A program made the translations under genes and the position numbers. From a virus, in the IMG/VR virus record IMGVR_UViG_3300009428_004250, positions 1 through 31,677 of that record: a DNA stretch of 31,677 nucleotides; one strand, written 5' to 3'. A model generated the notes under the pieces. That model was not told where the DNA came from. It made no database searches and saw nothing but the letters and a program-made list of their open reading frames with translations. Positions within the stretch are counted from its first letter, which is position 1; every line of letters starts with the position of its first letter. This document shows positions 837-29,062 of this stretch, piece by piece.

Positions 837-1193
837 TTAGCCGGCAACCTTAGAGGGTGTGAGCGATAGGAAATCCTCCCATGACATGACGACTAGGGGA
901 GGCTTGCGGTTAGAGCGTAGGACGAGGATAGGCGTTGCACCGTTCCGGTTGGCTTCCGCCTGGGCATAGGCTCGATACACGTTCGCGAAACCCTCTTGCC
1001 GCTTGGCTTCGATGGAGAAGGGGAACCGTTCTCTCGCCGCTTTCGTCATCATCTTAATATCGGTTCCGTTCTCACTTCCTATTGCCGTTCTAATTTCATC
1101 AGGTTCAATGTGAAACAATTCGATAATTCGTTCCTTCAACCAAATTTGGAAATCCCTTCCTTTCAGCTTTGCGCTTTTCCTAGTGATAGGCAT
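837..1193 (-). CDS. PDDEXK-type nuclease, possible Holliday junction resolvase
   Basis: This 118-residue protein has the pattern of a small PDDEXK nuclease: a basic N-terminus with KGR (11-13), then NGTDI with the likely metal-binding D45, and FSIEAKRQ carrying the E62-x-K64 pair. A helix (YAQAEAN) and a strand (TPILVLRSNRKPPLVVM) follow. Small phage proteins with an ERFPFSIE(C/A)K core are usually annotated as resolvase-like endonucleases. By analogy with T7 gp3 it could clear branched DNA before packaging, but that role is inferred. Its ATG overlaps the scaffold stop by one base (TAATG), so it is probably translated by coupling and is the last gene of the minus-strand head operon. It is the element gene nearest the ridA junction. 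Confidence 0.6.
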   Translation of the reverse strand: MPITRKSAKLKGRDFQIWLKERIIELFHIEPDEIRTAIGSENGTDIKMMTKAARERFPFSIEAKRQEGFANVYRAYAQAEANRNGATPILVLRSNRKPPLVVMSWEDFLSLTPSKVAG

Positions 1194-2023
1194 TAACGGT
1201 TCATACGTAACATCTTTTCAGTTAGAACGCGGGCCTTCTCCTGTAACTGTCTGCCCTTAGCATCATTGTTATAATAATCACTATTGGTCATAAGTTCTTC
1301 AATTCTAGCTTCAATATCAAGGGCTGAGTTAGAACCTGTTTCCGTATCGTCTAGAATGGCTGGTGAATTCTTGCCCATAACGCTTTCAAGAAATTTCATA
1401 CCGGCTGCGGTATTCGCTAATGGTAGGTTCAAAACTTCCGCTGGTACGTTAGCCGTTGCCCATGTTCGGATTGCCTTATGCTTACTAGAAAACTGGTTTC
1501 CCCATTCCGCTTGAAGTGTAGCAAGTTCCGCCTTTGCATCGATCTTAGGGCCGTTTTCTAATGCTCTGTTAATTTCTCCCATACCAAGAGCCGTCTTAAA
1601 CATTTTAGCTATAACCGGCATCTGTTCCTCAGAGAACTTTCCTTCTTTAAACATCGGAATGAAAGTATCATAAACACCTTCATATCCTTCCAACGGTAAA
1701 ACGTCTTCACCAACAGCCGTGAAAGCATTCTGAATATGTTCGTGTGTAACGTCTTCAATTGCTACAGGGCCTTTCTCACGTAGCTTCTTTGTAAGTTCCT
1801 TGTATCCCTTTTCTAAATCTTCAATCTTCTTATACTTATCAGCGTACAAACGTTCTTCCGTTGTTTCGGTTTCATCGGTTTCGCTTTCAGTTTCAGTTGA
1901 CGTTTCATCTTCGGTGTCTGAGCCGATATCCATATCTAACAAAGAGGCGCTTTCGGTTGTATCATTAGCAACTTCATTAGTTTCTGTTGTTTCTGTTTGG
2001 TTAGTTTCTGTTCCTGTAGTCAT
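1193..2023 (-). CDS. Capsid assembly scaffolding protein (T7 gp9-like)
   Basis: This 276-residue protein begins with about 60 residues rich in E, T, D and S (many TET/ETE runs). A charged helical segment (YADKYKKIEDLEKGYKEL) and a helical body follow, and it ends in a basic amphipathic helix (QLQEKARVLTEKMLRMNR). This acidic-start, helix-and-basic-tail layout is typical of T7-like scaffolding proteins, which guide procapsid assembly and then leave. T7 gp9 is 307 residues. The gene sits two places downstream of the portal, as in T7, but the major capsid gene is not next to it. Both ends overlap neighbours by one base (TAATG). Confidence 0.8.
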   Translation of the reverse strand: MTTGTETNQTETTETNEVANDTTESASLLDMDIGSDTEDETSTETESETDETETTEERLYADKYKKIEDLEKGYKELTKKLREKGPVAIEDVTHEHIQNAFTAVGEDVLPLEGYEGVYDTFIPMFKEGKFSEEQMPVIAKMFKTALGMGEINRALENGPKIDAKAELATLQAEWGNQFSSKHKAIRTWATANVPAEVLNLPLANTAAGMKFLESVMGKNSPAILDDTETGSNSALDIEARIEELMTNSDYYNNDAKGRQLQEKARVLTEKMLRMNR

Positions 2024-2280
2024 TAATAATCTACCTCTCCATTTAGGTTCTTTGTTATATGTCTGTATATTTCCATCTGAGCAACTTTATAAACGGCGGA
2101 ATACGCATTAGGGTCGTTACGATCAACCTTAGTTCCATTGATAATAAGTAGAATGTCTTTCAATACCTTGCGGCCCGAATCATTGCCGAATACGTGCTTA
2201 TAAAGAAGTGCCTTTTCTTGGTCATTATCTCTTTGTAGATCGGAAGAAATTTGTAATCTCTTAGATTGATTTGGGTTCAT
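2023..2280 (-). CDS. Bbp19-like small phage protein
   Basis: An 85-residue soluble protein with the pattern YKHVFGNDSGRKVLKDIL followed by NDPNAYSAVYKVAQMEIYRHI. This resembles the Bbp19 family of small phage proteins, where an FxxxxGRxVLxDL motif precedes an 'a..eG.r.v...I' helix. The family lies among head genes of many podoviruses and has no firm biochemical role. It sits between portal and scaffold, and its stop overlaps the scaffold start. The acidic and basic residues are spread evenly and there is no membrane segment. Confidence 0.55.
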   Translation of the reverse strand: MNPNQSKRLQISSDLQRDNDQEKALLYKHVFGNDSGRKVLKDILLIINGTKVDRNDPNAYSAVYKVAQMEIYRHITKNLNGEVDY

Positions 2281-2308
2281 TTAATTTAGGTTCCATTGTT
2301 TTGATTAT

Positions 2309-3907
2309 TTACCCGTTATTTAAGTTTGCTAATGCCGCTCCTAATGGTCCGTCTAAAGCTTTGTTCAAGGACTCGCCAGCTTGCCCGGCTTGCCCGGCAA
2401 CGCCTAGCGTCTGTTGTGTCTGATTCATCTGTGAGATTTGCTCTTTCATAGCGTCAACGGTTTCTTCGGAATTCAATAGGTCTTCCGATACGCCAAAGCC
2501 TCTCAATAGCTTTCTTGCAAGCTTATCCTTGTTGACATGAATAGCGGTTTCTTCTGGCATAACCTGGGCAACGTTCGCATAACCCATCAAATCGTTTTGA
2601 GCCTGTTGCAACATGCTTGCTTGTTTGACCGCTGCATTAACATCAACGGTGAAAATCTCAGAAGCGTTCGATACGTCAAAGCCCATGTTTCTAACAATCT
2701 GTAGATGCTCGTCTGTGAATGGCGGAATCTCGCCACGCTTCATCATTCGTCCGACAACCTGAGTAGCAATAAGCTTCAAAGCTTCATCCTGAAAACGTCT
2801 AGCAGGTTGCCCTACCTGTTGAATGAATGCCTCTCTATCAGCCATGATTTCGGTTGCGGTCTTATAAGTGTTTTTGCCTGTAGACCTTCCACGCGAAAGC
2901 AAGATATTTCGAATTTGCATAGCGGTACGTTCGAACATATCGGTTGTAATATTATAATTGCCTGGGAATTGGATAGGCGTAAGTGGTTGTTCCGTGTAGA
3001 TGATTCCACCTGGGACCAAACGTGAAGCGGCTTGTTCGGAATTAAAGCTTTCATCTTCCGTCTGGAATGCACCAAGAGCGGCAAATTCCCCCGCTCCAAT
3101 CATTGTCATCTGCATCTTGTTGATAAGGCGGATCGATGGAAGAGCCGCTAGACAAGGGGAGTCTCCCCAACCGTTATTAGATTTTGCCCAACGCCATACG
3201 ACGAACGGACTCCAGTTCATCGAAACGTTTTTAAGTTCGTGCCAACCATTTTCTAAATGAATGGTATATGTGAATTGGTCGCCATCAGGAATGACGGACT
3301 CAATAACACCGTGAGAGGCATCAGGGTTTGTCTCTGTGATTTCTTCCGGCAAGTCTTCAAATCGCTTCATAAGCTGGCGAGTTGTCCACTTATGTTCACG
3401 GAACCTGCAATCGACGTTACCGGCTTTATCCTCTAGGAAATACAATTGTTTCAAAGGAACGCATTCATACGTAAGAGGCTCAAACGGTTCATCGTGAATG
3501 GCTATGCAAGCGGTACCTGCTACAATCGTATCAAGAATGCATTCACCGATAGCGAGATAGAAGTTAGAATTAACGAAATGATCCCTGAGATAATCATTAG
3601 ATTCCGATAATTGTTCAACGACAAGTGGCCCTATCTCACGTCTCAATGTGTCTTTAATAAAACTGATTTCTGCCCAAGGTCGGGCTTCTGGAATGAGCAT
3701 ATTAATAATGGAAGTCTGTAATTCAACCGCAGCTTCATAAGCAGTATTGTCAAACAAATCATCATGATCGGTAGGTTCATCTTCAATGTAGAACTGGCGA
3801 GAAGGCAAAACGTAGTAATAGGCTTCATCAATCAATGAGGCTTGCTGTTCTCTCTTGCTCTTAGCTAATCCTAATAGCTCTTTAAGTTCCTTTATATTTC
3901 GCTTCAT
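2309..3907 (-). CDS. Head-to-tail connector / portal protein (T7 gp8-like)
   Basis: At 532 residues it is close in length to T7 gp8 (536). It opens with a helical region (KELKELLGLAKSKREQQASLIDEAYYYVLPSR) and contains the typical portal-body features EAAVELQTSIINMLIPEARPW, FYLAIGECILDTIVAGTA and a conserved YKTATEIMADREAFIQ helix. The C-terminus is rich in Q and A. Portal dodecamers form the DNA entry channel, bind terminase and hold the tail. The gene follows the small lysine-rich gene and precedes the Bbp19-like gene in the minus-strand operon. Confidence 0.9.
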   Translation of the reverse strand: MKRNIKELKELLGLAKSKREQQASLIDEAYYYVLPSRQFYIEDEPTDHDDLFDNTAYEAAVELQTSIINMLIPEARPWAEISFIKDTLRREIGPLVVEQLSESNDYLRDHFVNSNFYLAIGECILDTIVAGTACIAIHDEPFEPLTYECVPLKQLYFLEDKAGNVDCRFREHKWTTRQLMKRFEDLPEEITETNPDASHGVIESVIPDGDQFTYTIHLENGWHELKNVSMNWSPFVVWRWAKSNNGWGDSPCLAALPSIRLINKMQMTMIGAGEFAALGAFQTEDESFNSEQAASRLVPGGIIYTEQPLTPIQFPGNYNITTDMFERTAMQIRNILLSRGRSTGKNTYKTATEIMADREAFIQQVGQPARRFQDEALKLIATQVVGRMMKRGEIPPFTDEHLQIVRNMGFDVSNASEIFTVDVNAAVKQASMLQQAQNDLMGYANVAQVMPEETAIHVNKDKLARKLLRGFGVSEDLLNSEETVDAMKEQISQMNQTQQTLGVAGQAGQAGESLNKALDGPLGAALANLNNG

Positions 3908-3920
3908 TCATAATTTCACC

Positions 3921-4103
3921 TTAAAGTTTTGACTGTACGCCTAAAAATCCAGTCTCTTCATTCAATAATGAACCGATACCGGAAGCTCTACGCTTGCGTT
4001 CTTCTTCGATTTTTCGAGCCGCCGCGTCTTCTCTCTGAGCCGCAAGCTTCGTATCTTCTTCTTTAACCTCTACCGGTTTGGGCGCTTTTGGAGCAATGCA
4101 CAT
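3921..4103 (-). CDS. Small charged phage protein, portal-adjacent
   Basis: A 60-residue protein starting MCIAPKAPKPVEVKEEDTKL, then an alanine-, arginine- and glutamate-rich helix likely to form a coiled coil, ending GIGSLLNEETGFLGVQSKL. Short proteins with an MC..PKAPKP start lie next to the portal gene in many T7-like phages. They are virion- or assembly-associated, but I know of no established function. It sits between the gp13-like gene and the portal with a 13-base gap to the latter. Confidence 0.6.
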   Translation of the reverse strand: MCIAPKAPKPVEVKEEDTKLAAQREDAAARKIEEERKRRASGIGSLLNEETGFLGVQSKL

Positions 4104-4124
4104 ATTAATATCCTGCCGTTTTAA

Positions 4125-4568
4125 TTATTTAGTGAGTTCCCATATTCGGAACGGTTCTCCCGTAAAGGGCATAATGTAATCAGTGGGTGTAAAGCCTAAT
4201 GTTTTAACCCAACGCTTATTAGATTCGTACTTATCCCATAAGGGAATAAGCAACCTCATTCCGAAGAATTCATTCTTAAATGCACCTACTACGCCTAGTG
4301 CGACGCTATGAAACGACTTAGGAATTCTATTAACGGCATCGGTAGCTATAAACCCTAATACCGCTGTACTTTGGAATCTTGCTGCCCAAAACATAGCCGC
4401 TGGTTTACCGTTCAAATGAGCGATGCAACCATTAACATCCTTAAGCAAGTCAACATAATTGCTATCAGTCAGATACATAAGCCTAGCTTCTTCCTTGTCT
4501 CGCGTTCTCATGTGTTCCCATAAATATTGAAGATCGGGAATGTTCGGTTCTACAAACTCAATGTTCAT
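4125..4568 (-). CDS. T7 gp13-like virion-associated protein (GNAT-like fold)
   Basis: This 147-residue protein has an acetyltransferase-like order of elements: NGCIAHLNGKPAAMFWAARF, then FHSVALGVVGAFKNEF, then SNKRWVKTLGFTPTDYI, which resembles the 'a..w.e.lGF' tail of GNAT proteins. In T7-like phages the counterpart is gp13 (138 residues), needed for proper virion morphogenesis. Enzymatic activity is doubtful. Its start overlaps the stop of the tail tube B gene (TAATG), so it belongs to the tail/portal operon. The match is one of length, position and fold pattern rather than a strong motif. Confidence 0.55.
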   Translation of the reverse strand: MNIEFVEPNIPDLQYLWEHMRTRDKEEARLMYLTDSNYVDLLKDVNGCIAHLNGKPAAMFWAARFQSTAVLGFIATDAVNRIPKSFHSVALGVVGAFKNEFFGMRLLIPLWDKYESNKRWVKTLGFTPTDYIMPFTGEPFRIWELTK

Positions 4569-6541
4569 TAGTTATCCCTCAACTTTATGTCCGTAACGAT
4601 TGACGCAATCGTACAGGGGAGGGGAGACGAGACAGACAGAGTGAGGGTAGGGGAGCGGTAGCCGCTTCCGCCTAGGGTGACGCTGGCAAGGCCGGTGAAC
4701 GACGGTAGCGGCTCGTCCAGTAGGTCATCGCCTAGGCGACGTAAGGGAACGGGATAGCCGTCAACGGTTAGGCTCTTGGTATCGAGAAGTTCAACCCTAG
4801 CGCGAACTTTTCTAATATCATCAACTCTCTTAATCTGATTCTCAATCGATATAACAATATCCTGAGTTTCAACTAGCGAAGTGTATTCATGTCCGATATG
4901 AACGGTGTAAGCGGTTTCAACGAGTTCAAATGCGCCGCTACCATTTACCGCAGTATCAGCATGTACCAACCCATCAGCTAATACGCTACAGGTTTCACCT
5001 GATAAGCCGGTTACGCCTGTCCAATTGGTTTTGGCGGTGCCACTCGTTAGGACGTAATGACAATCAAGAAAAACATCTTCCTCAGTAAGATATTCAAGGA
5101 ATGTTCCGTTATCTCGTTCTATTAAAGCGTACAACGTTTCTTTCAATCCATCGCCATGATCGGCAGATACAACGATAACACGCTTGAACAAACCATTAGT
5201 TTTGAAACGCGACCAACCTAATACGTTCTTTTCCTGATCGATTGTGCAAACAGCTATCTCGCCATCCGCCCTTACAACGAATAACAAGTTAGCCTGAGTG
5301 TCTTTGAAGCCTCGCATGAACGCCATATCAATAGGCGCTTTCCCATCTACAAACAAATGATGGGCGAATATCGTTTTGTTTAAAGCGTTAAACCTATCAT
5401 TCGTATAATCATAAACGAATGAACGGATTTCCTTATTGTTTCGTGTAGAGAATATCAATTCTCCCTGTACGTCGATAACAGGAAGGTTGTTAATTCCGTT
5501 GGTGGATTGCGTAGCCGCTCTAACGTTCGTTGCCGTGATCGGATTATCTCCCCCACCTGTCACAACGCTTTCAGCTTCCGTAGAAAATACGAATAAGTTT
5601 TGTTGTGCTTTAAGGTCTTTGATTGATTGTTGTTCGGTAGAAGTGAGGTTGAATGTATATGCGGTTGAATCAGTGACTTCATAAACATCGGTAGTGGCGT
5701 TCTTAACTTTATCGGCAAAGTTGTAATAGTCACTGACATTACTTCCGAATATGATTCCGGGCAAAGCACGTGTTCCACCGAAAACCAATCGATCCTGAAA
5801 GAATATACAGGTTCTAGGATATCCTTTAGATGAAGACCAAGCCCATTCTTCGAAGGCGTTTGAGGCATCTGTTCCGGTTAGATCAACGTCACCTATCGTA
5901 CCTTCGATCACAGTTGCAGAAGTGTATGCAGTTACAGTGACGGTACCGCCATTAATACGAAACTTGCGACCAACCCAAGCGGCTGAGAAATAGTCGTCTG
6001 AAGCCGTAAACGTCACTCCCGTTCCTGTTACCGCACTAGGCGTAATCGTTACAGTACGGTTGAAACGATAGAAGGGAAGTTCCGTAAACGTTATATTGCT
6101 AAATGTCCAATCGTTATCGGCCCCATTTCTCGTAAGACGTTTCACCGGATATTCAGGATGGGTGAATATGATTGTATCGCCCGAATGTGTGTAACGTATA
6201 TCGGCTATATGATTGGACGTGTAAGGCGACGTTATTAAATCAACGATTACATCGTTACGCAAAATGCGAAGTTCGATATCTGAAAACAAAAGAATATATT
6301 GTTGATCCGTATTAAACGAGAATTTAACAAAACGGGATGAGTCTGCATCAACGCTACCAGATGTTTTCAAAATGTTTCTGAAACCCGGTCTTCGCTTGAT
6401 CGGGCCATGCGGTAAGACGAGCCAATTTTCCAGGGTCTTAGCTGATCGGAAGTAGTCGGGAAGGTCCGAACGTGACTCCATGTACGGGCCAAATTCGCCG
6501 CTCCCGAAGGTCGTTTGTGGGGAAGAGATCGGCTTACGCAT
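4568..6541 (-). CDS. Tail tubular protein B / nozzle (T7 gp12-like)
   Basis: The 657-residue product begins with the signature of this family: a short basic start, FGSGEFGPYMESRSDL, YFRSAKTLENWLVLPHGPIKRRPGF, then KFSFNTDQQYILLFSD. A long beta-rich body with SSSKGYPRTCIFFQDRLVFGGT follows. T7 gp12 (794 residues) forms the hexameric tail nozzle; this one is shorter. I chose the start at 6541 because GGGGAGG lies 9 bases upstream and the ATG overlaps the preceding stop as TAATG. A TTG three codons upstream would lengthen the protein by three residues. The 3' quarter, around 4600-4780, is much more GC-rich than the middle of the gene. Confidence 0.88.
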   Translation of the reverse strand: MRKPISSPQTTFGSGEFGPYMESRSDLPDYFRSAKTLENWLVLPHGPIKRRPGFRNILKTSGSVDADSSRFVKFSFNTDQQYILLFSDIELRILRNDVIVDLITSPYTSNHIADIRYTHSGDTIIFTHPEYPVKRLTRNGADNDWTFSNITFTELPFYRFNRTVTITPSAVTGTGVTFTASDDYFSAAWVGRKFRINGGTVTVTAYTSATVIEGTIGDVDLTGTDASNAFEEWAWSSSKGYPRTCIFFQDRLVFGGTRALPGIIFGSNVSDYYNFADKVKNATTDVYEVTDSTAYTFNLTSTEQQSIKDLKAQQNLFVFSTEAESVVTGGGDNPITATNVRAATQSTNGINNLPVIDVQGELIFSTRNNKEIRSFVYDYTNDRFNALNKTIFAHHLFVDGKAPIDMAFMRGFKDTQANLLFVVRADGEIAVCTIDQEKNVLGWSRFKTNGLFKRVIVVSADHGDGLKETLYALIERDNGTFLEYLTEEDVFLDCHYVLTSGTAKTNWTGVTGLSGETCSVLADGLVHADTAVNGSGAFELVETAYTVHIGHEYTSLVETQDIVISIENQIKRVDDIRKVRARVELLDTKSLTVDGYPVPLRRLGDDLLDEPLPSFTGLASVTLGGSGYRSPTLTLSVSSPLPCTIASIVTDIKLRDN

Positions 6542-7137
6542 TAGCGCCAACCTCCCCTGTAGCCTCCCCTAGAGGCGGATAGCCACGTACTCGCCCCGTA
6601 GATGCTCCTAGACGTGTTCGCCTGGGCGTCGGAATGGCGAGCCTTCTTCATCTTCGCGTCATACTCAGTGAACAAACCTCTTGCTAAGTCACCGTCACCC
6701 ATCAAAGGGTTGCATAATTCATACGCAAGCTTGCTAACTAATGCGTCTGTGAATTGGGCTGAGAAACTATTTTCGTTACAATCGGCATGATATCTTAATA
6801 GAACAACCAATGAATTAGCGTATATGCGGTTTCCTTCATCGAGATATGGAATTGAAGTCATATTCTCGTCATATGCAGTGATTGTCCTGATATGATCGGC
6901 AGGAATGGCGAATGAATACGACCACTTAGTATCAGTTGGGGTATCGGTATATCTCGATAAGTTCGCTACGGTAGCGGTGAAGTTCCAGTTGTAATTACCT
7001 AGTTCGGCTGATTTAACAATCGGATATATCGTTGCGGCTACCTGACTTTCTCGTGTGCCATCATTGAAAGATGCAATCTCATTCGCGCCAATCTTCAACA
7101 AGGCTGCGGAAAGAATATCGAATTTGGTTCGTGCCAT
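6541..7137 (-). CDS. Tail tubular protein A / adaptor (T7 gp11-like)
   Basis: The 198 residues (T7 gp11 has 196) show the family pattern: ILSAALLKIGANEIASFNDGTRESQVAATIYP at the start, then NYNWNFTA and KWSYSFAIPADHIRT. These are followed by FTDALVSKLAYELCNPLMGD and a C-terminal GGYRGGWR. This protein forms the ring between portal and nozzle. It is the first gene of the minus-strand tail/head operon and is separated from the major capsid gene by an intrinsic terminator. Its stop is shared with the start of the nozzle gene. The 3' end lies in a GC-rich island with one CCTGGG motif. Confidence 0.88.
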   Translation of the reverse strand: MARTKFDILSAALLKIGANEIASFNDGTRESQVAATIYPIVKSAELGNYNWNFTATVANLSRYTDTPTDTKWSYSFAIPADHIRTITAYDENMTSIPYLDEGNRIYANSLVVLLRYHADCNENSFSAQFTDALVSKLAYELCNPLMGDGDLARGLFTEYDAKMKKARHSDAQANTSRSIYGASTWLSASRGGYRGGWR

Positions 7138-7170: not shown

Positions 7171-7201
7171 CAAAAAAATAGGGAAGCCGAAGCCTCCCTA
7201 T
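7171..7201 (-). terminator. Intrinsic terminator after the major capsid gene
   Basis: Read on the minus strand, a 10-bp stem with one mismatch (ATAGGGAGGC / GCTTCCCTAT) closes a loop of about four bases and is followed by a run of seven T. It lies 24 bases after the capsid stop, isolating capsid transcription from the tail operon. Confidence 0.85.
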
Positions 7202-7224: not shown

Positions 7225-8052
7225 TTATACGTCGCTTACGTCACTCCATGCGATTTCATCATGAACCAACTTCGCACCATAAAGACCGGCTACACAAATC
7301 ACCCAATACTGAGCATCAGCGTTCTTATCGATTGATACGCTGAATTCCTTTGGAGAGAATAAAGCTACGTCTCTCTTGTGGAATGCATACGCTTCACGTC
7401 CGGTATAATCGGTGTCGGATGTAGCAGTAAGGTAATTGCTCTGTACGATCTTACCGAAACCGGCAACGTTAGAGAAATAACCGTCGTTCAACGCCTTGTT
7501 CACCATGAAATCAGATGATGTAAGGGTTGTGTCGTTCATCATGTCTTCCCAAGCTGGAGACGAAATAACCAATGTTCTATCGCCTTGATCAACATTCTTA
7601 GCATTGAGAACGGAAGCCATCTTAACAACACCCTGTTTGTTCATGGTGTTAGCCGTTGGCAATGCGGTTTCGGTTTCAGCGGTTGCGGCCAATGCAGCGA
7701 TAATAAGCTGGTCGATTCGCACATTGATTGCAGAAACCAATGTATCAATTGAAGACTTACGGAAATCAACGTTACTCTGGAATGGATCGAGAGAAGCGAT
7801 TCTATCGAAAGCTTCAACAGGCTGTGCAGCTACGTTGACTTGCGCCTGTGCTGGTTCGGTGAAAGTACCGTTAGTGAATCGGCCACGACCAACCTGCGCC
7901 GTTACGTTACCGATTGTAGGAATGTTGATAGATTCACCAACGCCGCTGTAATACTTAACACTGTCTCGTAAAAGCGACTTTGACTGTCTAAATGCTACGT
8001 TAAATTCTTTTGCAAACTGAGAAATAAAAACTTCTGTACGTGTATCAGCCAT
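7225..8052 (-). CDS. Major capsid protein
   Basis: A 275-residue protein with features of HK97-fold phage coat proteins: an N-terminal helical arm (VFISQFAKEFNVAFRQSKSLL), a GESINIPTIGN segment and an E-loop-like VGRGRFTNGTFTEP. A spine-helix region (SIDTLVSAINVRIDQLIIAALAA) follows, and the C-terminal part reads YAFHKRDVALFSPKEFSVSI then VAGLYGAKLVHDEIAW. It is shorter than T7 gp10A (345). The gene is flanked by minus-strand terminators on both sides, as expected for a highly expressed coat gene, and has GGAGGG upstream. A diverged paralogue lies immediately upstream. Which of the two forms the shell is inferred from length and from the completeness of the E-loop and arm. Confidence 0.8.
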   Translation of the reverse strand: MADTRTEVFISQFAKEFNVAFRQSKSLLRDSVKYYSGVGESINIPTIGNVTAQVGRGRFTNGTFTEPAQAQVNVAAQPVEAFDRIASLDPFQSNVDFRKSSIDTLVSAINVRIDQLIIAALAATAETETALPTANTMNKQGVVKMASVLNAKNVDQGDRTLVISSPAWEDMMNDTTLTSSDFMVNKALNDGYFSNVAGFGKIVQSNYLTATSDTDYTGREAYAFHKRDVALFSPKEFSVSIDKNADAQYWVICVAGLYGAKLVHDEIAWSDVSDV

Positions 8053-8102
8053 TTCATATGACCCTCCATTAAAAATTGTTTGAAATTTGCTACGGATGAA
8101 AC

Positions 8103-8122
8103 CGCAACTTCTCGCAACTTCC
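8103..8122. repeat. Tandem decamer in the capsid leader
   Basis: Two adjacent copies of CGCAACTTC plus one base (GAAGTTGCG on the transcribed strand) lie about 50 bases before the major capsid start, inside a 273-base leader. This could be a regulator or translational control site; no function is known. Confidence 0.5.
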
Positions 8123-8230
8123 GGGTGGGCTTACTTGTTTGGGGTTCACTCTTGCGAATGAGGTATGCCAAAACCTTTCAGGGTCTTCAGTTGTCACTAA
8201 TATTTACATGAAATATGCAAAATCATTGCA

Positions 8231-8269
8231 CATATAAAAAGAGAGTGAGGCGGTTAAACCTCACTCTCT
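8231..8269 (-). terminator. Intrinsic terminator between the two capsid genes
   Basis: A perfect 11-bp stem (AGAGAGTGAGG / CCTCACTCTCT) with an 8-base loop is followed on the minus strand by TTTTTATATG. It lies downstream of the capsid paralogue and stops transcription from the small-gene operon before the major capsid gene. Confidence 0.88.
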
Positions 8270-8325
8270 TGCAACACCAAAGGAAAAATACTTGAAATGT
8301 AGTCAGTATCACCTGACAAAAGTAT

Positions 8326-8997
8326 TTAGTGAAATATAATGATTGGACCATGCATTACACGAACGCCATACAATACAGTCACTTTAACATTATTTGCTTC
8401 AACGGCAATATCAGGCTGTTGTGGAACGAATGATGCAACCTGACTCTTAGTAAACGCATATCCATTGCTCCCATGACGGAATACCAATTTACCAATCAAT
8501 ACGCCATTCTTTTCTGATTCTTCGGAAGCGTCGGCTATCGCTGTAACGTTCTTTTTCAAAACCTTTTCAAAGTCAGCGACTAGAACGCGGTCTGTAGGCT
8601 CTAACAATGCAGCGTTCATCGCCTGGGCAACCTTGAAGATTCCAACCTTGTCTAGCTCCCCATTCGGAAGGTTCACCGTCTCAGCCGTAGCAGCGTCCAA
8701 AGCGGCGATAATCAAGGTGTCTCTCTGTTCGTTCACGCTGGCCCTAAGCTTTGCGTACACGCCTTCACGGTAATCAGGCTCATTCGAGAACCGTTCAACG
8801 TCCACAACCTCGCTTGCCTCGATAGGGGAGGGGGTGACGGTGACGGTGACGGAATGGCTAGTAAGGGAATCGGCTACGGGTGCAGAGTTGCCCATTGTAG
8901 GAATGTTGAAAGTTACGCCACCTTCAAAGGTGGTGATTGCCTTCTGTAACGCTGATGCATTGAATCCGTTATTAAATTCATTTGTGTATGTTTCCAT
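8326..8997 (-). CDS. Diverged second capsid-like protein, paralogue of the major capsid protein
   Basis: The 223 residues align along most of their length with the neighbouring major capsid protein. Shared blocks include FNIPTMGN versus INIPTIGN, DTLIIAALDAATAET versus DQLIIAALAATAETE, and GIFKVAQAMNA versus GVVKMASVLNA. Further blocks are DRVLVAD versus DRTLVIS, GYAFTKSQVASFVPQ versus AYAFHKRDVALFSPK, and LYGVRVMHGPII versus LYGAKLVHDEIA. It is about 50 residues shorter, lacking much of the N-terminal arm and a stretch before the YAF block. It could be a minor capsid subunit, a decoy or an interfering capsid protein. AGGAGG lies 8 bases before the ATG. The middle of the gene is a GC-rich island. 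Confidence 0.75.
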   Translation of the reverse strand: METYTNEFNNGFNASALQKAITTFEGGVTFNIPTMGNSAPVADSLTSHSVTVTVTPSPIEASEVVDVERFSNEPDYREGVYAKLRASVNEQRDTLIIAALDAATAETVNLPNGELDKVGIFKVAQAMNAALLEPTDRVLVADFEKVLKKNVTAIADASEESEKNGVLIGKLVFRHGSNGYAFTKSQVASFVPQQPDIAVEANNVKVTVLYGVRVMHGPIIIFH

Positions 8998-9012
8998 ATT
9001 TGCTACCTCCTA

Positions 9013-9099
9013 TTAAATTATTACTGCCACAATCGCTAAACCAATCAACAATGATGGACCTGAAAAGTAGTCATATATTCTGAAATCGTTAAAGCTCAT
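9013..9099 (-). CDS. 28-residue membrane peptide
   Basis: A very short frame encodes MSFNDFRIYDYFSGPSLLIG followed by LAIVAVII, a polar start and one hydrophobic helix. GAGGAT lies 6 to 7 bases upstream of the ATG. The stop overlaps the ribosome-binding region of the capsid paralogue, so the two are probably co-translated. Function unknown; a small inner-membrane peptide is all that can be said. Confidence 0.5.
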   Translation of the reverse strand: MSFNDFRIYDYFSGPSLLIGLAIVAVII

Positions 9100-9137: not shown

Positions 9138-9290
9138 TTAATGCTCTGTTTCGTTTGGTAAATCTATTAGTTCAACAAATGGTTCTTCATCATCATACGG
9201 CAGATGCACCTTAATAGCCGGGTGATCGGGATGCACGATTAATAAACAACCATCGTCATAAGCGAATGAGGCTTTGTCAAAGTATGACAT
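9138..9290 (-). CDS. 50-residue acidic hypothetical protein
   Basis: A small frame encodes MSYFDKASFAYDDGCLLIVH, then PDHPAIKVHLPYDDEEPFVE and LIDLPNETEH. The alternation suggests two or three short beta strands in an acidic soluble protein. Its ATG overlaps the stop of the upstream gene by one base (TAATG), the same coupling used throughout the element, which is the main argument that it is real. I do not recognise a family. Confidence 0.6.
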   Translation of the reverse strand: MSYFDKASFAYDDGCLLIVHPDHPAIKVHLPYDDEEPFVELIDLPNETEH

Positions 9291-9745
9291 TAAGCCTTTC
9301 CTAATACTGGAAAGCTTAATAATTGCATTTCCTCAAATACAAATGGATCTAGATACAGAAATACCATTACATCGAATTCCAATACCCCTTGCATACTAGA
9401 TGGGATATCGGCTCTAGTTTTGTCGTCGTATCGGATTTTTAAGGAAATGTAACAATGTTCCGTGAGGAATTCGCAACCGAATTCCTTTGATTCGATGGCC
9501 CTAGATACCGTTCTAAAAAATTCTCTGCAAACCATTCTGCGAAAAACTTCACCGGTTAAATGGTTAATATCTTCTAGGTTCATTGAGATAGTACCGGCAA
9601 GCAATGGGTTAGTTTTGGTGTTGTGCTCTAAGACGATGGTTTGTCCTTCGCTTAAAACACCTCTGCAATGCCCTTCCGCCTCCGTAAAGATATCGCAATA
9701 AAGCTGAGTTATAATTGCTTCGTTCGAAGTTGCGTCGTTATTCAT
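9290..9745 (-). CDS. Hypothetical protein, small-gene operon
   Basis: This 151-residue soluble protein has helices around 10-30 (IITQLYCDIFTEAEG) and 65-90 (VFRRMVCREFFRTVSRAIES), and beta-rich stretches with HCYISLKIRYDD and GVLEFDVMVFLYLDPFVF. I recognise no family. The start at the second ATG is preferred: AGGAGA sits only 2 bases before the first ATG but 8 bases before the second, exactly as in the gene upstream. Its stop overlaps the next small gene. The position between the anti-defence candidate and the capsid genes gives no clear hint of function. Confidence 0.7.
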   Translation of the reverse strand: MNNDATSNEAIITQLYCDIFTEAEGHCRGVLSEGQTIVLEHNTKTNPLLAGTISMNLEDINHLTGEVFRRMVCREFFRTVSRAIESKEFGCEFLTEHCYISLKIRYDDKTRADIPSSMQGVLEFDVMVFLYLDPFVFEEMQLLSFPVLGKA

Positions 9746-9760
9746 ATTCATAATCTCCTA

Positions 9761-10153
9761 TTAAAACGTATTTCTTTTGCCGCTGTGCATGTAAACATAA
9801 TCCCAAGCCAGGGTTGTCTTAATAACTATGCCAGAAGTACCCCAAGTATCAACAGGCACAAGCCTATCAAATTGAAGGCGTAAATCAAACACAACAATAA
9901 TGGGGCGAGTGGAAGCCGGTTTAGCCGACATGATGATTGACGCCAAACGTTTTCCATCAATCTTCAAAACCGAAAGCGTATTGCTATTAGATATCTCATA
10001 TTGAATATCAGTGAACGTTTCAGAGAAGGTATAATCTCCTGGAACTAATACCCTAGCGGCTGCGGTGCCATTCAAACGGAAATGCGTAACCATTTCATCA
10101 ACCGATCTATCGAATTCGTCGTTTAAGTATTCTCTCGGTAATGTGTAAGCCAT
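9761..10153 (-). CDS. Hypothetical beta-rich protein, small-gene operon
   Basis: A 130-residue product (MAYTLPREYLNDEFDRSVDE...) with a short helical start and then a chain of beta-prone segments: AARVLVPGDYTFSETF, TLSVLKIDGKRLASIIMS, RPIIVVFDLRLQFDRLVP and GIVIKTTLAWDYVYM. No known family is recognised. The start was moved two codons into the longest frame because AGGAGG lies 8 bases before the second ATG and only 2 before the first. It lies directly downstream of the Acb2/Tad1-like gene in the same operon, so a defence-related role is possible but unproven. Confidence 0.7.
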   Translation of the reverse strand: MAYTLPREYLNDEFDRSVDEMVTHFRLNGTAAARVLVPGDYTFSETFTDIQYEISNSNTLSVLKIDGKRLASIIMSAKPASTRPIIVVFDLRLQFDRLVPVDTWGTSGIVIKTTLAWDYVYMHSGKRNTF

Positions 10154-10170
10154 ATTCATAACCTCCTATT

Positions 10171-10386
10171 TCAAAACTTAGAGGGCGAACTAATCGCGCG
10201 ATTCACTTCCATGAACGCCACCTGGAAATCCGTTCTCGCAATCGCTAACCAACGTTGGTCAACCGTCTTCCATTCCTTCAAATCATCTAACATTTCCTGT
10301 AAGATTGTACCGATATCCGTAAGAGAATTAATTACATCAATCTCTTCATCCGTTAATTGTCTATATCCTGTAAGTGTTTTAGTCAT
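10171..10386 (-). CDS. Acb2/Tad1-like cyclic-nucleotide sponge (anti-CBASS / anti-Thoeris)
   Basis: The 71-residue product matches my recollection of the Acb2/Tad1 hairpin family along its whole length: GYRQL at 7-11, EEIDVIN at 14-20, DQRW at 43-46, ARTDFQ at 50-55, FM at 58-59, RA at 63-64, and P68 with a terminal F71. Family members are oligomeric helical proteins that bind cyclic di- or trinucleotide signals (Acb2) or cyclic ADP-ribose isomers (Tad1), so that CBASS or Thoeris effectors are not activated. As I recall, Acb2 uses Y11 and K26 for cyclic dinucleotides; the aligned residues here are Y8 and T23, so the lysine is missing and specificity may differ. Start: GGAG lies 9 bases before the chosen ATG, and the longer frame would need a TTG. 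It lies in an operon of very small genes. Confidence 0.72.
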   Translation of the reverse strand: MTKTLTGYRQLTDEEIDVINSLTDIGTILQEMLDDLKEWKTVDQRWLAIARTDFQVAFMEVNRAISSPSKF

Positions 10387-10406
10387 TTTAGTTTTCTCCA
10401 ATATGT

Positions 10407-10550
10407 TTAGTTTTTTGACTCGATTACGATTGCGGCGGCTACTGATAGAATTATTGATATAACCGCTAATAGTAGAAATAGTCCCATCAGTGGGGCTAAT
10501 ATATTTTCTGCGTATGCTAGTGTTAGGTGAACAAATTGATTACCTGTCAT
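10407..10550 (-). CDS. 47-residue single-span membrane protein
   Basis: The frame encodes MTGNQFVHLTLAYAENILAP, then a long hydrophobic helix (LMGLFLLLAVISIILSVAAA, IVI) and a short ESKN tail. A strong AGGAGG lies 7 bases before the ATG, inside the end of the upstream gene, and the start overlaps that gene's stop as ATGA. The size, single helix and tandem arrangement with another tiny membrane gene would suit a holin-like or membrane-active accessory protein, but this is not a family match. Confidence 0.65.
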   Translation of the reverse strand: MTGNQFVHLTLAYAENILAPLMGLFLLLAVISIILSVAAAIVIESKN

Positions 10551-10672
10551 TTTAAAGCCTCCTTTAGCATCTTGATGGAACTAAACATAAAGGATCCCAC
10601 AAATGCGACGGCCGCTAAACAAAAGATCGTTCCTATAACTGTAAAAAAACCAAACGCTATAATGTTCGCCAT
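10547..10672 (-). CDS. 41-residue membrane protein
   Basis: The frame encodes MANIIAFGFFTVIGTIFCLA, then AVAFVGSFMFSSIKMLKEAL and a final K: one long hydrophobic helix and a short basic amphipathic tail. The start shares one base with the stop of the upstream gene (TAATG), and its 3' end contains the ribosome-binding site of the next gene. Coupling on both sides supports it as a real gene. Function unknown. Confidence 0.65.
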   Translation of the reverse strand: MANIIAFGFFTVIGTIFCLAAVAFVGSFMFSSIKMLKEALK

Positions 10673-11520: not shown

Positions 11521-11768
11521 ACTGATAGCCGGTCATCAGTGCCAGCTTACCGCCTGGGAAATGCCTGAGATTGACCGCTATAGCCGAATGAACATAGCGG
11601 TTCATGGCGGTCGGACTCGATGTGGCTACGCTTAAAATCATCAGCTATTCAGCCATTCTTGGGCATCTGATACCCTTCAAATTGGCTCATATCGGCTCCA
11701 ATCAGGGGGAATCAGGCTCTAGATATGAGCGAGGAATTGACCAATACGTGTCAGGAATGGGGGAAGAA

Positions 11769-12146
11769 ATGCGAACGATATTCTGTGTATTTTGTGTGTG
11801 TTTAGTTTCGTGGAATGTGAGTGCGCAAGAAGTAGACGTTAGCAACTTCAAAACGGGAAACAAGTTGTACAAAGACTGCGCCGAAAATTACAGACATTGT
11901 GTCGGATACGTTCAAGGGGTGGTGGATGGGGCGAGTGCTATTATGGCGGAACTTAGCATGAAAACGCCAATTTGCTTTCCTAATAATGTTACATCTGGCC
12001 AAGTGACAGATATTGTAATAAAGTACCTTAAAGAAAATCCATCAGCCAGACATTATGTCGCGGCCAGCAACGTTATGGTTGCTATTACCAATGCATTCCC
12101 TTGTCCAGATGTTGCGAAAGACCTTGGCGGGAAATGGGTTAAATGA
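11769..12146 (+). CDS. Secreted Rap1a/Tai-like protein
   Basis: The 125-residue product starts with a signal peptide (MRTIFCVFCVCLVSWNVSA, cleavage before QEVD). The mature part has the Rap1a/Tai pattern: C37...C44 in a CAENYRHCVGYVQGVVD stretch, ICFPNNVTSGQV with C69, then IVIKYLKENPSARH and a final NAFPCP with C112, giving likely disulfides. Founding members are periplasmic immunity proteins against type VI secretion amidase effectors; relatives occur on phages. Here it could protect the lysogen or guard against a cell-wall enzyme, but this is inference. The start was chosen at the ATG opening the signal peptide, preceded by GGGGGAAG; a longer frame begins at 11604 with unrelated sequence. 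It is transcribed toward the primase-helicase gene and converges with it. Confidence 0.7.
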   Translation: MRTIFCVFCVCLVSWNVSAQEVDVSNFKTGNKLYKDCAENYRHCVGYVQGVVDGASAIMAELSMKTPICFPNNVTSGQVTDIVIKYLKENPSARHYVAASNVMVAITNAFPCPDVAKDLGGKWVK

Positions 12147-12207: not shown

Positions 12208-14865
12208 TTATTCAAAAAGGGGGAGTGAATACGTGCATCTAATAAGAATACTATTAGGTGCGGGGATTCGATCCCCTTTTCTATTTCGGTCCAATTCCCT
12301 GAATTCGACTAACTGGTATCGGCTACTTCTACTCAATTCCTCTAATTGGAGATACAAGGAAAGATATGGGTGAATAATTAATATGTGTTTATGTCCTGTA
12401 TCTCTGTAACCTTTGTTTCTTCCAATAGTCTGATTAATTATATCCATGTAGAAATGTTTAATAGGGGAAGCCAGTTCGATTCCCGCCGCCAAAGCATTAA
12501 GGTATGCGTATTGCTGCGGTGAAATCATCATCTGTATCTGTGCAATGTCTGTCTCTGATAGGAGGTTGCTTCCTTGAACGCCTTGGTGAGTACAGACGTT
12601 AGGTAATGTGAGACTAGATGCATGATTGGTTACAATGAAGATACCTGGGAAGGCTTCGTTAACGTCTCTTGCCAGTTCCTTAAGTCCTTCCTTGTGTGCT
12701 TTATCATGTTTGATGAATGGTATTTCGGTTTGTTTATCAATCGGCATAAAGTTTAATGTCTTAATGCCTAGTTTCTCAGATATGAGCATAGGTAGGGTTT
12801 CGGTTGTCGTTATGGCTACGTGATCGGCTGCATATTTGAACCATTCCTGTTTGTGAATGTATGCAGGTTGTCCGTCATATGATTTATAAATGTGATCGTT
12901 GACGTTCTTACTGTTGTCTTTGCCGAATGGTTCCTTATTGAAATCCAATGTGATTTGTTCGTAATCGGATAGGTTCACGTTTACTGCTACATGGGCGGAA
13001 ACTGTATCCTGTTCTTCTCCGGTCAATTTGTAATAGGCGTAATGTTTCTCAGTGGTCGTTGCCTTGTCCCAATCGAGTGAGTTTTGCATTCGTTTGATTG
13101 CTTCATATTGTTCCTGAGTGAGAAATTCGATTAAGTCGGTTGGTGCAATCTCGTCATATAGAAGGTATGCGGGCTTTAGATCATTCTTCAAACCCATAAG
13201 GTATTTGCTATCGTCAATTTGTGCGATATCGAAATCAGGATGCAGGAAGGCGATTGCTTTAAGAGATTTCAGCCACGTCTTATGAAGGGCGTGAACGGTG
13301 AAGATCATGCATTCATCAATTTTATTTCCGTTCCACGCTTCGTTACGCATTTCGATCATGCGGGCGAAAACATTAGGTTGATAGTTGGAAGCGTATTCGA
13401 TCAAAGAGCCGTCATAGATGGATACAGGCTTTTCCTCTAATTCTTCGCAAGCGAGGCTATAATATTTCGATGCAGAGCGAAGGAAGACGGCTGGCATATT
13501 TGAAGATCGTTTGAAAGCTTCGAACTTCTCGAATGATTGAGCATAGGAGATAGAGGCGACATATCTAGGTCCGGTGCATGTCATTAGAAGTTCAATGAAG
13601 CGTGTGGATTTGCCGATACCCTCGCTAGAGCAAAGAATAAACGTGTTAAATCCATGAAGAATGATAGGTGCGAGGTTTGATAGTGCCGTTCTGGCGTCTG
13701 ATATCTTCGTTTGGAATTGAAATAGCTGTTCAAGTCCGTTTGGCTTTCTAGGATAAATGTTGACGGTATCGGCTATGCATCTGGCCCATTGGTTCAAGCT
13801 GATTGGTAAATAAAAGTCTTCTAGGAAGTCATGTTCTCCAATTAGAATGATCTTCTTCATGTCTCCATATACGTAGCTTCCCGCTTTCCTGTCATGTGGT
13901 CCGTTGAAGAACTTTGCTCGCGGTTCGCCTTTGTAGCTATCGACGTGAGCGAGCGTCAAACCTGGGAAGTTCTCTTTGCACCAAGCGTCTAGCTGGCGTT
14001 CCAGTTCGGGAAACACGCTTGTTGGCGCTCTGTAGCCGCTACGGACGGGTTTGGGCTTGGCTGCGGCTGTCTGGTACTTCCCATCATCGAACATCATCGA
14101 GCGGGCTTCGGGATAGCTCCGGCTGGAAAGTTGATCCCATAGAACCGTTTGGCGGATTTTACGCGTTCTCGTGAGAGAGGCGAACGGATGGCTGTTGATC
14201 TGTCTGGTATCGAGAAGCCTTGTTCCGTGCGGTAAGCGGCGGAATTGCTTAGGACTCGCTAGGGCAGGATCAGCTTTCAATTCAAAAAACTGTTCGAATT
14301 CGGTTTTAAGATCGGTGAATACCAATCTGCACATTTCATAGAACGTTGCATCAGAAGTGTTATTCTTCCATTTCCCTAATGATCTGTTGGATTGAGTGCA
14401 AAGTTCTTTGTTTAAGTGATAAGTGTTGAATATGAAATGATAGTGAAGGCTCCAGTTTCCCGAATATGCTACGTTGCATCCTAGGTAGTCACCATATCTC
14501 TTTAGAGAGTTATGAAACTGATACATACGTGATTTCTGAATGTGGTTCTTAGATGATGGGCTGAGATTGTCTAGCTGTTCATATAATACATCTAATGTAT
14601 GTTCGTCGCATTCCATCGTAATGATGGCTATTCCTGAATTGATGGTATCAAACTCGCTATCAATAGCATTCTTGAAAACGCTATGACTGTTGATGGCTTC
14701 CGGGTTTCGTCTGACTTCCTCAATGAAGGGATCATACATTTCAAGCTTGGTTTCCTTGGTTGGTGCAATCGGAAACCGGTAATCGTTAACCTGAGACAGT
14801 ATAAGTCTGATTAAATCAGACGAGTCTTTATCAGTGGTTAGTTGTTTTAAATATTTTTGGTCCAT
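12208..14865 (-). CDS. Primase-helicase with archaeo-eukaryotic primase-like N-terminus
   Basis: The 885-residue product appears to join two modules. Residues about 75 to 225 resemble an archaeo-eukaryotic primase core: AIITMECDEHT (80-90) with an E-x-D pair, AYSGNWSLHYHFIF (133-146) with the S-x-H type motif II, and RRLPHGTRLL (209-218). Residues about 405 to 600 carry a P-loop SSEGIGKST (413-421) and a Walker B stretch AYLLYDEIAP (566-575), as in origin-binding superfamily 2 helicases of herpesvirus UL9 type found in phages. The protein could open and prime the phage origin; no DNA polymerase is present, so the host would extend. The start at 14865 is preferred because GAGG lies 8 bases upstream; the longer frame would translate through the leader hairpin. 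Confidence 0.7.
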   Translation of the reverse strand: MDQKYLKQLTTDKDSSDLIRLILSQVNDYRFPIAPTKETKLEMYDPFIEEVRRNPEAINSHSVFKNAIDSEFDTINSGIAIITMECDEHTLDVLYEQLDNLSPSSKNHIQKSRMYQFHNSLKRYGDYLGCNVAYSGNWSLHYHFIFNTYHLNKELCTQSNRSLGKWKNNTSDATFYEMCRLVFTDLKTEFEQFFELKADPALASPKQFRRLPHGTRLLDTRQINSHPFASLTRTRKIRQTVLWDQLSSRSYPEARSMMFDDGKYQTAAAKPKPVRSGYRAPTSVFPELERQLDAWCKENFPGLTLAHVDSYKGEPRAKFFNGPHDRKAGSYVYGDMKKIILIGEHDFLEDFYLPISLNQWARCIADTVNIYPRKPNGLEQLFQFQTKISDARTALSNLAPIILHGFNTFILCSSEGIGKSTRFIELLMTCTGPRYVASISYAQSFEKFEAFKRSSNMPAVFLRSASKYYSLACEELEEKPVSIYDGSLIEYASNYQPNVFARMIEMRNEAWNGNKIDECMIFTVHALHKTWLKSLKAIAFLHPDFDIAQIDDSKYLMGLKNDLKPAYLLYDEIAPTDLIEFLTQEQYEAIKRMQNSLDWDKATTTEKHYAYYKLTGEEQDTVSAHVAVNVNLSDYEQITLDFNKEPFGKDNSKNVNDHIYKSYDGQPAYIHKQEWFKYAADHVAITTTETLPMLISEKLGIKTLNFMPIDKQTEIPFIKHDKAHKEGLKELARDVNEAFPGIFIVTNHASSLTLPNVCTHQGVQGSNLLSETDIAQIQMMISPQQYAYLNALAAGIELASPIKHFYMDIINQTIGRNKGYRDTGHKHILIIHPYLSLYLQLEELSRSSRYQLVEFRELDRNRKGDRIPAPNSILIRCTYSLPLFE
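12262..12280 (+). terminator. Intrinsic terminator after the Rap1a-like gene
   Basis: GGGGAT, a 3-base loop and ATCCCC are followed by TTTTCTATTT on the plus strand. It lies within the antisense 3' end of the primase-helicase gene and probably ends the Rap1a-like transcript. On the minus strand no T-run follows. Confidence 0.6.
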
Positions 14866-14885
14866 ATTTTGTGCCTCAAAAGTAA

Positions 14886-14943
14886 AAAGTCCTGACGGAG
14901 GCACCCATCAGGACTTTAAGGACTTTTTCTTTTAAGGACTTTA
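14886..14943 (-). promoter_or_regulatory. Leader hairpin with competing repeats before the primase-helicase gene
   Basis: On the transcribed strand, three AAGTCCT units (two as AAGTCCTTA, one as AAGTCCTGA) precede a single complementary TCAGGACTTT, which is followed by TTACTTTTG. The nearest unit forms a perfect 10-bp stem with a 12-base loop, while the other two could pair with the same arm. This looks like an attenuator or mutually exclusive hairpins ahead of the primase gene. A simple terminator is the alternative. Confidence 0.5.
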
Positions 14944-16411: not shown

Positions 16412-16489
16412 GCACGTGAAACACCAAAACTAACCATTCTCCATAAATATGAATAGGCGAATATGCCTAACACATTGGAGGATGTTGAA

Positions 16490-17035
16490 ATGTTAAAATA
16501 TTGTAAGAATTGTCAAGCCGTAACAGAAACATATTTTTTTGGTAAATTGTACCATTGTCGAACCTGTCAGTTAGATAGAGCGTCGAAGCTACAAAAGCTG
16601 AGAGTACGTTTTAATAAATGGTTCGCTACTAAGGCGGCGGGATTTAATGAGGGTGAATGTTGGGAACTTACTAATACGTCTTATCCAACCGTAAGATTTA
16701 GCGGAGTCCAATATAAAGCCAACAGGTTGATATGCAGATTTGTAAATAAGCAACGAATTAGAGGAAAAGTTATCAGACATACATGCGATAACGATAAGTG
16801 TATTAACCCTGATCATCTAATTGTAGGTACGAGCAAAGACAATTCCATTGATATGGCGGAACGCGATAGATGGAAAAAGGGCGTATTATCAATCGAAGAT
16901 GTAAAATATATCAAGACGAGATTAGTGAACATTAAAAGAGGCGTCGTCATAGAATTGGCAAGAATGTTTAATGTTTCTCCAGAAGCCATTCGACACATTA
17001 AGAACGGAAAGAATTATAAACACGTTGTTATCTAA
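16490..17035 (+). CDS. HNH endonuclease with zinc ribbon and C-terminal HTH
   Basis: The 181-residue product has an N-terminal Cys4 zinc ribbon (C5, C8, C23, C26) and an HNH core with H97 in IRHTC, then CINPDHL with N106 and H109, and SKDN with N118. A C-terminal helix-turn-helix-like segment follows (VVIELARMFNVSPEAIRHIK). This layout fits free-standing homing-type HNH nucleases common in phages. The start at 16490 is supported by GGAGG 8 bases upstream; a longer frame starts 9 codons earlier. It lies just before the virion core genes, a typical insertion place for such nucleases. A role in packaging is possible but less likely, since the terminase genes are remote. Confidence 0.85.
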   Translation: MLKYCKNCQAVTETYFFGKLYHCRTCQLDRASKLQKLRVRFNKWFATKAAGFNEGECWELTNTSYPTVRFSGVQYKANRLICRFVNKQRIRGKVIRHTCDNDKCINPDHLIVGTSKDNSIDMAERDRWKKGVLSIEDVKYIKTRLVNIKRGVVIELARMFNVSPEAIRHIKNGKNYKHVVI

Positions 17036-28422: not shown

Positions 28423-28560
28423 ATGACGCAATCGGAACGGGCAATTGTTGCCCTTCTGACTCTCGTCCAGGCTCGCGATATCGCTCATACGATCATCGAG
28501 ACAGCCGCTCCCATCTTCAACCTGGGGAGGCTGTTGGCGTCATCGATCCTGGGAAGCTAG
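28423..28560 (+). CDS. 45-residue hypothetical peptide
   Basis: The frame encodes MTQSERAIVALLTLVQARDI, then AHTIIETAAPIFNLGRLLAS and SILGS, an amphipathic to hydrophobic helical peptide with few charges. Only weak GAAG lies before the ATG, and the sequence contains two CCTGGG motifs, so coding status is uncertain. A membrane-active peptide in the lysis-gene position after the spike is possible. Confidence 0.35.
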   Translation: MTQSERAIVALLTLVQARDIAHTIIETAAPIFNLGRLLASSILGS

Positions 28561-28561
28561 A

Positions 28562-28596
28562 GACAAAAAGAGAGGGGAGCCGTGATAGCTCCCCTC
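28562..28596 (-). terminator. Intrinsic terminator between convergent genes
   Basis: A perfect 9-bp stem (GAGGGGAGC / GCTCCCCTC) with a 7-base loop is followed on the minus strand by TCTTTTTG. It ends the minus-strand terminase/DUF6641 transcript and, less strongly (ATTCTTGTG), the plus-strand spike transcript. Confidence 0.8.
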
Positions 28597-28624
28597 ATTC
28601 TTGTGTCCGGTAGGGAAGGGGAGG

Positions 28625-29062
28625 CTATGCAGCCTTCTTCCGCCCCGTCCTGCCCTTCAGCCGGGCACCGATAGCGTCGGCAGCTTCGATGATGGGTTGC
28701 CGCAGTTCGTTATCCGCCGCGTTCCTGATGGCTTCAAACGCCTGTTTCACGTTCTCCAGCGTCGGGCCAGCTTCGACGGTGCCGCGACCATCGATCAGAA
28801 GGTTCGTGTTGCCGTACTTCAGGTTCACGTACCAGACGCCTCCCTTGCGGAAGTAGGCAAGCCTGGGCTTCCTGCCCTTGTCCGTCATCGGGAGCGGCTT
28901 ACCGGCCAACTCCATTTCGACAAACTCCAGTTGCTTTTCGATTCCGCCTTTGAAGTTGGCGATAGGGTCTTTCGTAACCGCTGCATTCCCTATCGGCTTC
29001 GCCTCGCTTACCAGTTTGAAACCGGCAAGCATGGGCTGCGAGGAAGCGGGAGCCTTAGCCAT
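28625..29062 (-). CDS. DUF6641-like protein
   Basis: The 145-residue product begins with LAGFKLVSEA and has a core YFRKGGVWYVNLKYGNTNLLID. A helix with the pattern TLENVKQAFEAIRNAADNEL follows, and the protein ends in a basic tail (ARLKGRTGRKKAA). As I recall, this matches the DUF6641 family, found in phages and plasmids of alphaproteobacteria, with no known function. The basic tail suggests nucleic-acid contact. It lies downstream of the large terminase in the same direction with an 83-base gap, and GGAAGG precedes its ATG by 8 bases. It is GC-rich compared with the terminase. Confidence 0.6.
   Translation of the reverse strand: MAKAPASSQPMLAGFKLVSEAKPIGNAAVTKDPIANFKGGIEKQLEFVEMELAGKPLPMTDKGRKPRLAYFRKGGVWYVNLKYGNTNLLIDGRGTVEAGPTLENVKQAFEAIRNAADNELRQPIIEAADAIGARLKGRTGRKKAA

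Follow-up and report, generated by a model that had tools for sequence, protein, structure and literature searches.

The N-terminal arm (N-arm) and the E-loop are parts of the HK97 fold with which capsid subunits grip their neighbours. Most of the known examples of a dedicated second capsid protein come from large phages, such as T4, and from satellites, such as the one encoding Ccm. The T4 protein gp24, a paralog of gp23 with ~20% identity to it, forms only pentons, and its shorter N-terminal part is removed in maturation (PMC9958956). In SaPIbov5, Ccm and CP share 24% identity; Ccm forms the pentons, with a shortened N-arm that points away from the adjacent subunits (PMC8569155). A further literature match for paralogs of the major capsid protein (MCP) is the giant phage SPN3US, which differs in being a 240-kb myovirus. 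The 275-aa protein described below and, by descent, the 223-aa one belong to the family formed by the MCPs of the HTVC010P-type pelagiphages, Yersinia phage YeP5, Methylophilales phage MEP301 and LME-1; all those examined have a single MCP, followed by the tail tubular proteins A and B, and in the loci with both genes the portal lies upstream of it.

The DNA analysed here, an IMG/VR virus sequence of 31,677 bases (in the following called the window), is the one genome on which the whole analysis rests. Family searches recovered the gene set of a T7-like podovirus, with terminase, portal (PF12236), both tail tubular proteins (A and B), internal virion proteins and an internal protein that has a transglycosylase match. 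From this content the phage is classified as a T7-like podovirus and distant kin of the HTVC010P-type pelagiphages; these, YeP5 and MEP301 are the nearest named phages, with a protein identity of only ~30%. The 276-aa scaffold-like protein matches in phmmer the open reading frame (ORF) that related loci carry between the portal and MCP genes. Because the full virion gene set is present (own terminase, portal, MCP, scaffold-like gene, tail tubes A and B, internal virion genes), we rejected a satellite identity. The principal features are listed in Table 1.

Table 1 Features of the two capsid genes and their surroundings in the window.
Feature	Position	Strand	Evidence
Probable scaffold/capsid assembly protein, 276 aa	1193..2023	-	phrog_3742 E 3.4e-8
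Portal (head-tail connector)	2309..3907	-	PF12236 E 1.9e-56
Tail tubular protein B	4568..6550	-	phrog_376 E 8.5e-133
Tail tubular protein A	6541..7137	-	phrog_394 E 6.6e-39
Intrinsic terminator after MCP (core stem)	7182..7198	-	-18.3 kcal/mol, z -4.8, then T-run
MCP, 275 aa, HK97 fold, T7/HTVC010P-type	7225..8052	-	PF19821 Phage_capsid_2 E 2.9e-32; phrog_3437 major head protein E 1e-37
Shine-Dalgarno GGAGGG before MCP	8062..8067	-	sequence
Intrinsic terminator after short gene, before MCP	8239..8270	-	13-pair stem, T-run; -22.2 kcal/mol, z -6.1 vs shuffles
Short capsid paralog, 223 aa, just upstream of MCP gene	8326..8997	-	BLASTP to MCP E 1e-19; phrog_267 E 0.0037; AlphaFold pLDDT 84
Shine-Dalgarno AGGAGGT, 7 nt before ATG of short gene	9005..9011	-	sequence
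28-aa membrane-type mini-ORF (MSFNDFRIYDYFSGPSLLIGLAIVAVII)	9013..9099	-	stop abuts Shine-Dalgarno of short gene; sequence reading
50-aa ORF, same gene row	9138..9290	-	no family match
153-aa ORF, same gene row	9290..9751	-	AATAGGAG start region
132-aa ORF, same gene row	9761..10159	-	AATAGGAGG start region
Acb2/Tad1-hairpin protein, 76 aa, same gene row	10171..10401	-	PF24729 E 9.1e-15, above cut-off; PDB p26 8h2j/8ixz E 8e-10

Several stretches elsewhere in the window stand out in their own right. The left end (1-830) has a G+C content of 59-69%, against ~43% in the phage, and carries an ORF with RTX calcium-binding repeats and a third-position G+C of 0.85. It is likely host DNA or a chimeric join, and because it resembles host DNA the record may be a provirus. 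A protein with a signal-peptide-like stretch and a Rap1a domain (PF18602, E 1.3e-20), the latter a family known for bacterial type VI immunity proteins, is encoded inside the phage genome at 11604-12146 on the plus strand. The 898-aa protein at 12208-14904 (minus strand) has a GIGKST P-loop and matches no Pfam or PHROG family; perhaps it is a primase-helicase. An HNH homing-type endonuclease gene adjoins the internal virion genes (16463-17035, plus strand), and at 28500-29000, near the end of the tail module, the G+C content climbs locally to 59% at an ORF lacking a family match.

A preliminary description of this DNA, made from its letters alone, had pointed to two paralogous capsid-type genes lying side by side. 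Both ORFs lie on the minus strand where it had placed them. The longer one encodes the MCP. A profile built from this protein and its relatives matches the capsids of 9eg4 (LME-1), 9jwb, 8i4l and T7 10A, the proteins concerned being those of LME-1, cyanophages A4 and P-SCSP1u, and T7. The shorter protein aligns to the MCP nearly end to end, which confirms the ordered sequence blocks that had been noticed, with 29% identity over 259 columns by BLASTP (E 1e-19) and 33% over the shared columns by MAFFT (74 identical residues). The N-arm and internal losses ascribed to it were also borne out: absent are ~11 residues of the N-arm, ~8 of the E-loop tip and ~24 in the region of MCP residues 180-218. 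The family stretch TSSDF..KAL..G...GF is lost, too. Of 154 positions that are at least 80% conserved in relatives, 55 are retained in the MCP and 25 in the short copy; for the ten such positions within MCP 191-218 the numbers are six and none.

When 27 representative capsid proteins are placed on a tree, the short protein and the MCP come out as sisters with 99/97 support, a placement that is less sure for so long a branch as that of the short copy. Their shared stem measures 1.07 substitutions per site, followed by 3.37 for the short copy and 1.14 for the MCP, so the former evolved about three times faster. A stretch reading NIPT[IM]GN is common to both and absent from the other capsid proteins of the viral collection, which supports their pairing. 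By these comparisons the short gene is a true paralog of the MCP gene in the window. From the sister position, the long branches and the exclusive NIPT[IM]GN stretch, the duplication is private to this phage lineage and not recent, with uneven evolution afterwards.

Outside the window, the short protein left few traces. It reached no Pfam family at an E-value of 0.01, including the PF19821 cut-off (versus 2.9e-32 for the MCP), and its PHROG match, to the major head protein phrog_267, is weak (E 0.0037). By tblastn it matched nothing in 50,697 phage records or 72,556 plasmids, and in 390 genomes of the order to which the Ascidiaceihabitans genome belongs there was a single weak hit to part of it (38% along 83 residues, E 0.006). 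In the viral collection, scans with the short protein, the MCP or tail tube B singly, or with a two-sequence capsid alignment, returned no relatives among the matches listed, and a DNA pattern for NIPT[IM]GN found 69 stretches there, none in a capsid relative. Thus, among the matches listed from the phage, plasmid and viral collections there is no convincing relative of the short protein; by their design these collections may lack close kin of the window, so that closer relatives may exist.

The preliminary description had also proposed to look for relatives that keep both genes, and no two-copy relative turned up among the loci and records searched. A second capsid copy was found in none of the 162 family loci listed, within the sequence available at each (74 of them with at least 3 kb on both sides). 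Searching 44 whole records with the MCP gave one match per viral record; the bacterial genome of Bermanella, among these 44, had two, on different contigs. Gene order differs as well. In all 114 related loci having both genes the portal lies upstream of the MCP, usually with the scaffold gene between them, whereas the head module of the window (1193-7137) is reordered, with portal and scaffold downstream of tail tube B. The succession of MCP and tail tubes A and B is shared with the relatives, and the short capsid gene holds the place upstream of the MCP where they carry the scaffold gene. Because no such copy is seen in the ~160 related virus fragments examined, it probably does a new job, for instance at the shell corners or in meddling with assembly or host immunity.

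We also considered that the short gene could be a relic, either a leftover capsid duplicate or a former capsid gene after its replacement, which is still unbroken. The long branch, the internal shortening, the loss of family-conserved positions and the lack of relatives would agree with this. The coding state speaks against it. Codon-position identity between the two genes is 51% at first, 58% at second and 25% at third positions; synonymous sites are thus saturated while the protein is kept. The frame is open, without a stop in 223 codons, and its codon use is that of the other phage genes, in the right frame only. At such saturation we infer that a neutral stretch of 223 codons should contain ~10 stops, and the chance of finding none is ~2e-5. 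With the open frame, a strong Shine-Dalgarno sequence, phage-like codon use, and second positions kept while third positions are randomised, the short gene is not decaying, and a pseudogene or decaying duplicate is disfavoured. A relic is accordingly the explanation that we favour least, and we consider it very improbable.

Structure prediction gave the same HK97 fold for both proteins; the unrelated folds that would have spoken against a capsid pair were not seen. The MCP model (pLDDT 74) has a Z-score of 18.7 to the LME-1 capsid 9eg4. The AlphaFold model of the short protein (pLDDT 84, pTM 0.82) has the spine helix (residues 74-102), the P-domain sheet, the A-domain and an E-loop, which is shortened and of low confidence; the predicted fold is thus that of the MCP. 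Both models were built on the same 27 alignment rows, which are rich in MCPs, and the fold of the short protein is therefore no independent evidence of homology. Its best structural matches are the Pyrococcus furiosus virus-like particle PfV (Z 16.7, 203 residues, rmsd 3.0) and encapsulins (Z 15-16), ahead of LME-1 9eg4 (15.4); the Ccm-containing procapsid 7rwz is among the matches, too. An encapsulin identity was considered and set aside, as the sequence sister is a phage MCP. No encapsulin-type cargo gene was recognised in the window, and the resemblance to encapsulins and PfV reflects a minimal HK97 fold, that is, a shared fold only.

The strong terminator noticed earlier between the two genes is confirmed, and the terminator signals there and after the MCP are far beyond chance (Table 1). 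Because of the strong terminator upstream, the MCP must have its own promoter or depend on read-through; the stretch between the two genes yielded no consensus promoter. The short gene is the last in a tight gene row in which it is preceded by the Acb2-type gene, the ORFs of 132, 153 and 50 aa and the 28-aa mini-ORF, which is probably a gene. Start regions are alike across the row (AATAGGAG(G)), and from the spacing and the shared terminator we infer that it is one operon. The row contains three tiny membrane-type ORFs of 28, 47 and 41 aa (9013-9099 and 10407-10672, minus strand). The 132-aa and 153-aa neighbours had no relatives found in phages. Such a neighbourhood is what one expects for accessory genes, not for a head module.

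The 76-aa protein of this row is predicted, from its domain and the p26 match, to be a cyclic-nucleotide sponge of the Acb2 type, an anti-CBASS protein. Relatives of it occur in 100 phage records, and here it sits in a T7-like phage that lacks close relatives. Its presence in the row raises the idea of counter-immunity: the short copy might block or distract a capsid-recognising host sensor (of the CBASS, Thoeris or CapRel type) alongside the sponge. A trimmed capsid copy would occupy or spoil sensors of capsid hexamers, and one gene row would then act on a single defence at two points, blocking its trigger as well as its second messenger, which we regard as a long shot. Several defences sense the MCP (PMC10884400), and the Thoeris system of Staphylococcus senses MCP hexamers that are stabilised through contacts of the E-loop and P-loop (PMC11312562); a decoy might well look like an MCP whose E-loop and N-arm are reduced. 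The fast evolution of the short copy would fit as well, but it equally fits relaxed constraint. The link is a gene neighbourhood in one genome, and the literature search brought up no published capsid-derived decoy, so that counter-immunity as a whole appears rather improbable.

We tentatively favour a different role for the short protein, as a specialised minor shell subunit that most likely forms pentons, and hold this with somewhat less than even confidence. Duplication of the lineage's own major capsid gene would have yielded the 223-aa gene, and the short copy would now be under selection as a minor capsid subunit, with the HK97-fold core retained, the N-arm reduced, the E-loop shorter and the capsomer-contact region altered. 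It may co-assemble with the 275-aa protein and fill the positions that do not need those contacts, most plausibly the pentons, while the major protein would form the hexons; if the shell were T=7, as we assume, at most 55 copies of the short protein would be present. Precedents are T4 gp24 and SaPIbov5 Ccm, two penton proteins whose divergence from the respective MCP is similar. The truncated N-arm fits this pattern, because that of Ccm is shorter, too.

Other observations weigh against the penton role. The entries of LME-1, A4, P-SCSP1u and T7 10A list seven chains of one sequence, so in the closest solved relatives a single protein appears to make up hexons and pentons alike; with such single-protein shells, and no two-copy relative found, this capsid family needs no second copy. 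The short gene is transcribed in another unit than the MCP gene, where it follows genes that seem non-structural and precedes a terminator. Finally, with TSSDF..KAL..G...GF and the E-loop tip lost, the short protein could be unable to assemble any longer.

A fold that is kept while the inter-subunit elements are cut back, together with a transcription unit apart from that of the MCP and a place last in a row of accessory genes, would also suit assembly interference. In this reading the short copy, made during infection or from a prophage, enters the hexons or procapsids of related phages that compete with its own and disrupts their assembly in a dominant-negative manner. Ccm of SaPIbov5, which redirects helper capsids (PMC8569155), is a precedent, and the prophage protein Tab, which blocks virion (tail) assembly (PMC10884400), a looser one; the host-like left end, by which the record may be a provirus, points the same way. 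Yet the phage would poison its own lytic cycle unless timing or specificity protected it, no protector gene was recognised in the window and no integrase among the genes searched there, and the element is a full phage. We therefore consider interference unlikely. Of the preliminary description, which had offered both a minor shell subunit and a satellite-like interfering protein, paralogy and a shared capsid fold are supported, and either role may apply, although the element is no satellite.

The minor shell subunit that we favour would resemble T4 gp24, which likewise is encoded along with another protein of the HK97 fold. T4, however, has a prolate head and is much larger, whereas the window comes from a ~32-kb T7-like phage whose relatives use one MCP; the short gene sits apart from the MCP in a transcription unit that looks accessory, and its penton position is proposed by analogy. 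The pairing of the short gene with its own MCP within the T7-type family, in a tree that left gp24 off, would imply a duplication independent of that in T4. With Ccm the short protein shares the homology to an MCP, a changed N-arm and a similar divergence. However, Ccm comes from a satellite and is directed against a helper phage, whereas the short gene resides in a full phage, adjoining its own MCP gene, its sister.

As a duplicate private to one lineage, and in a T7-like phage of 32 kb, the short gene would offer a simple system for a capsid protein gaining a role at the vertex, in interference or as an immune decoy. Should the short protein work together with the Acb2-type protein next to it, this would represent a new way of blunting capsid-sensing immunity. 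If it is indeed a penton protein, a small podovirus would split the duties of hexon and penton between two proteins.
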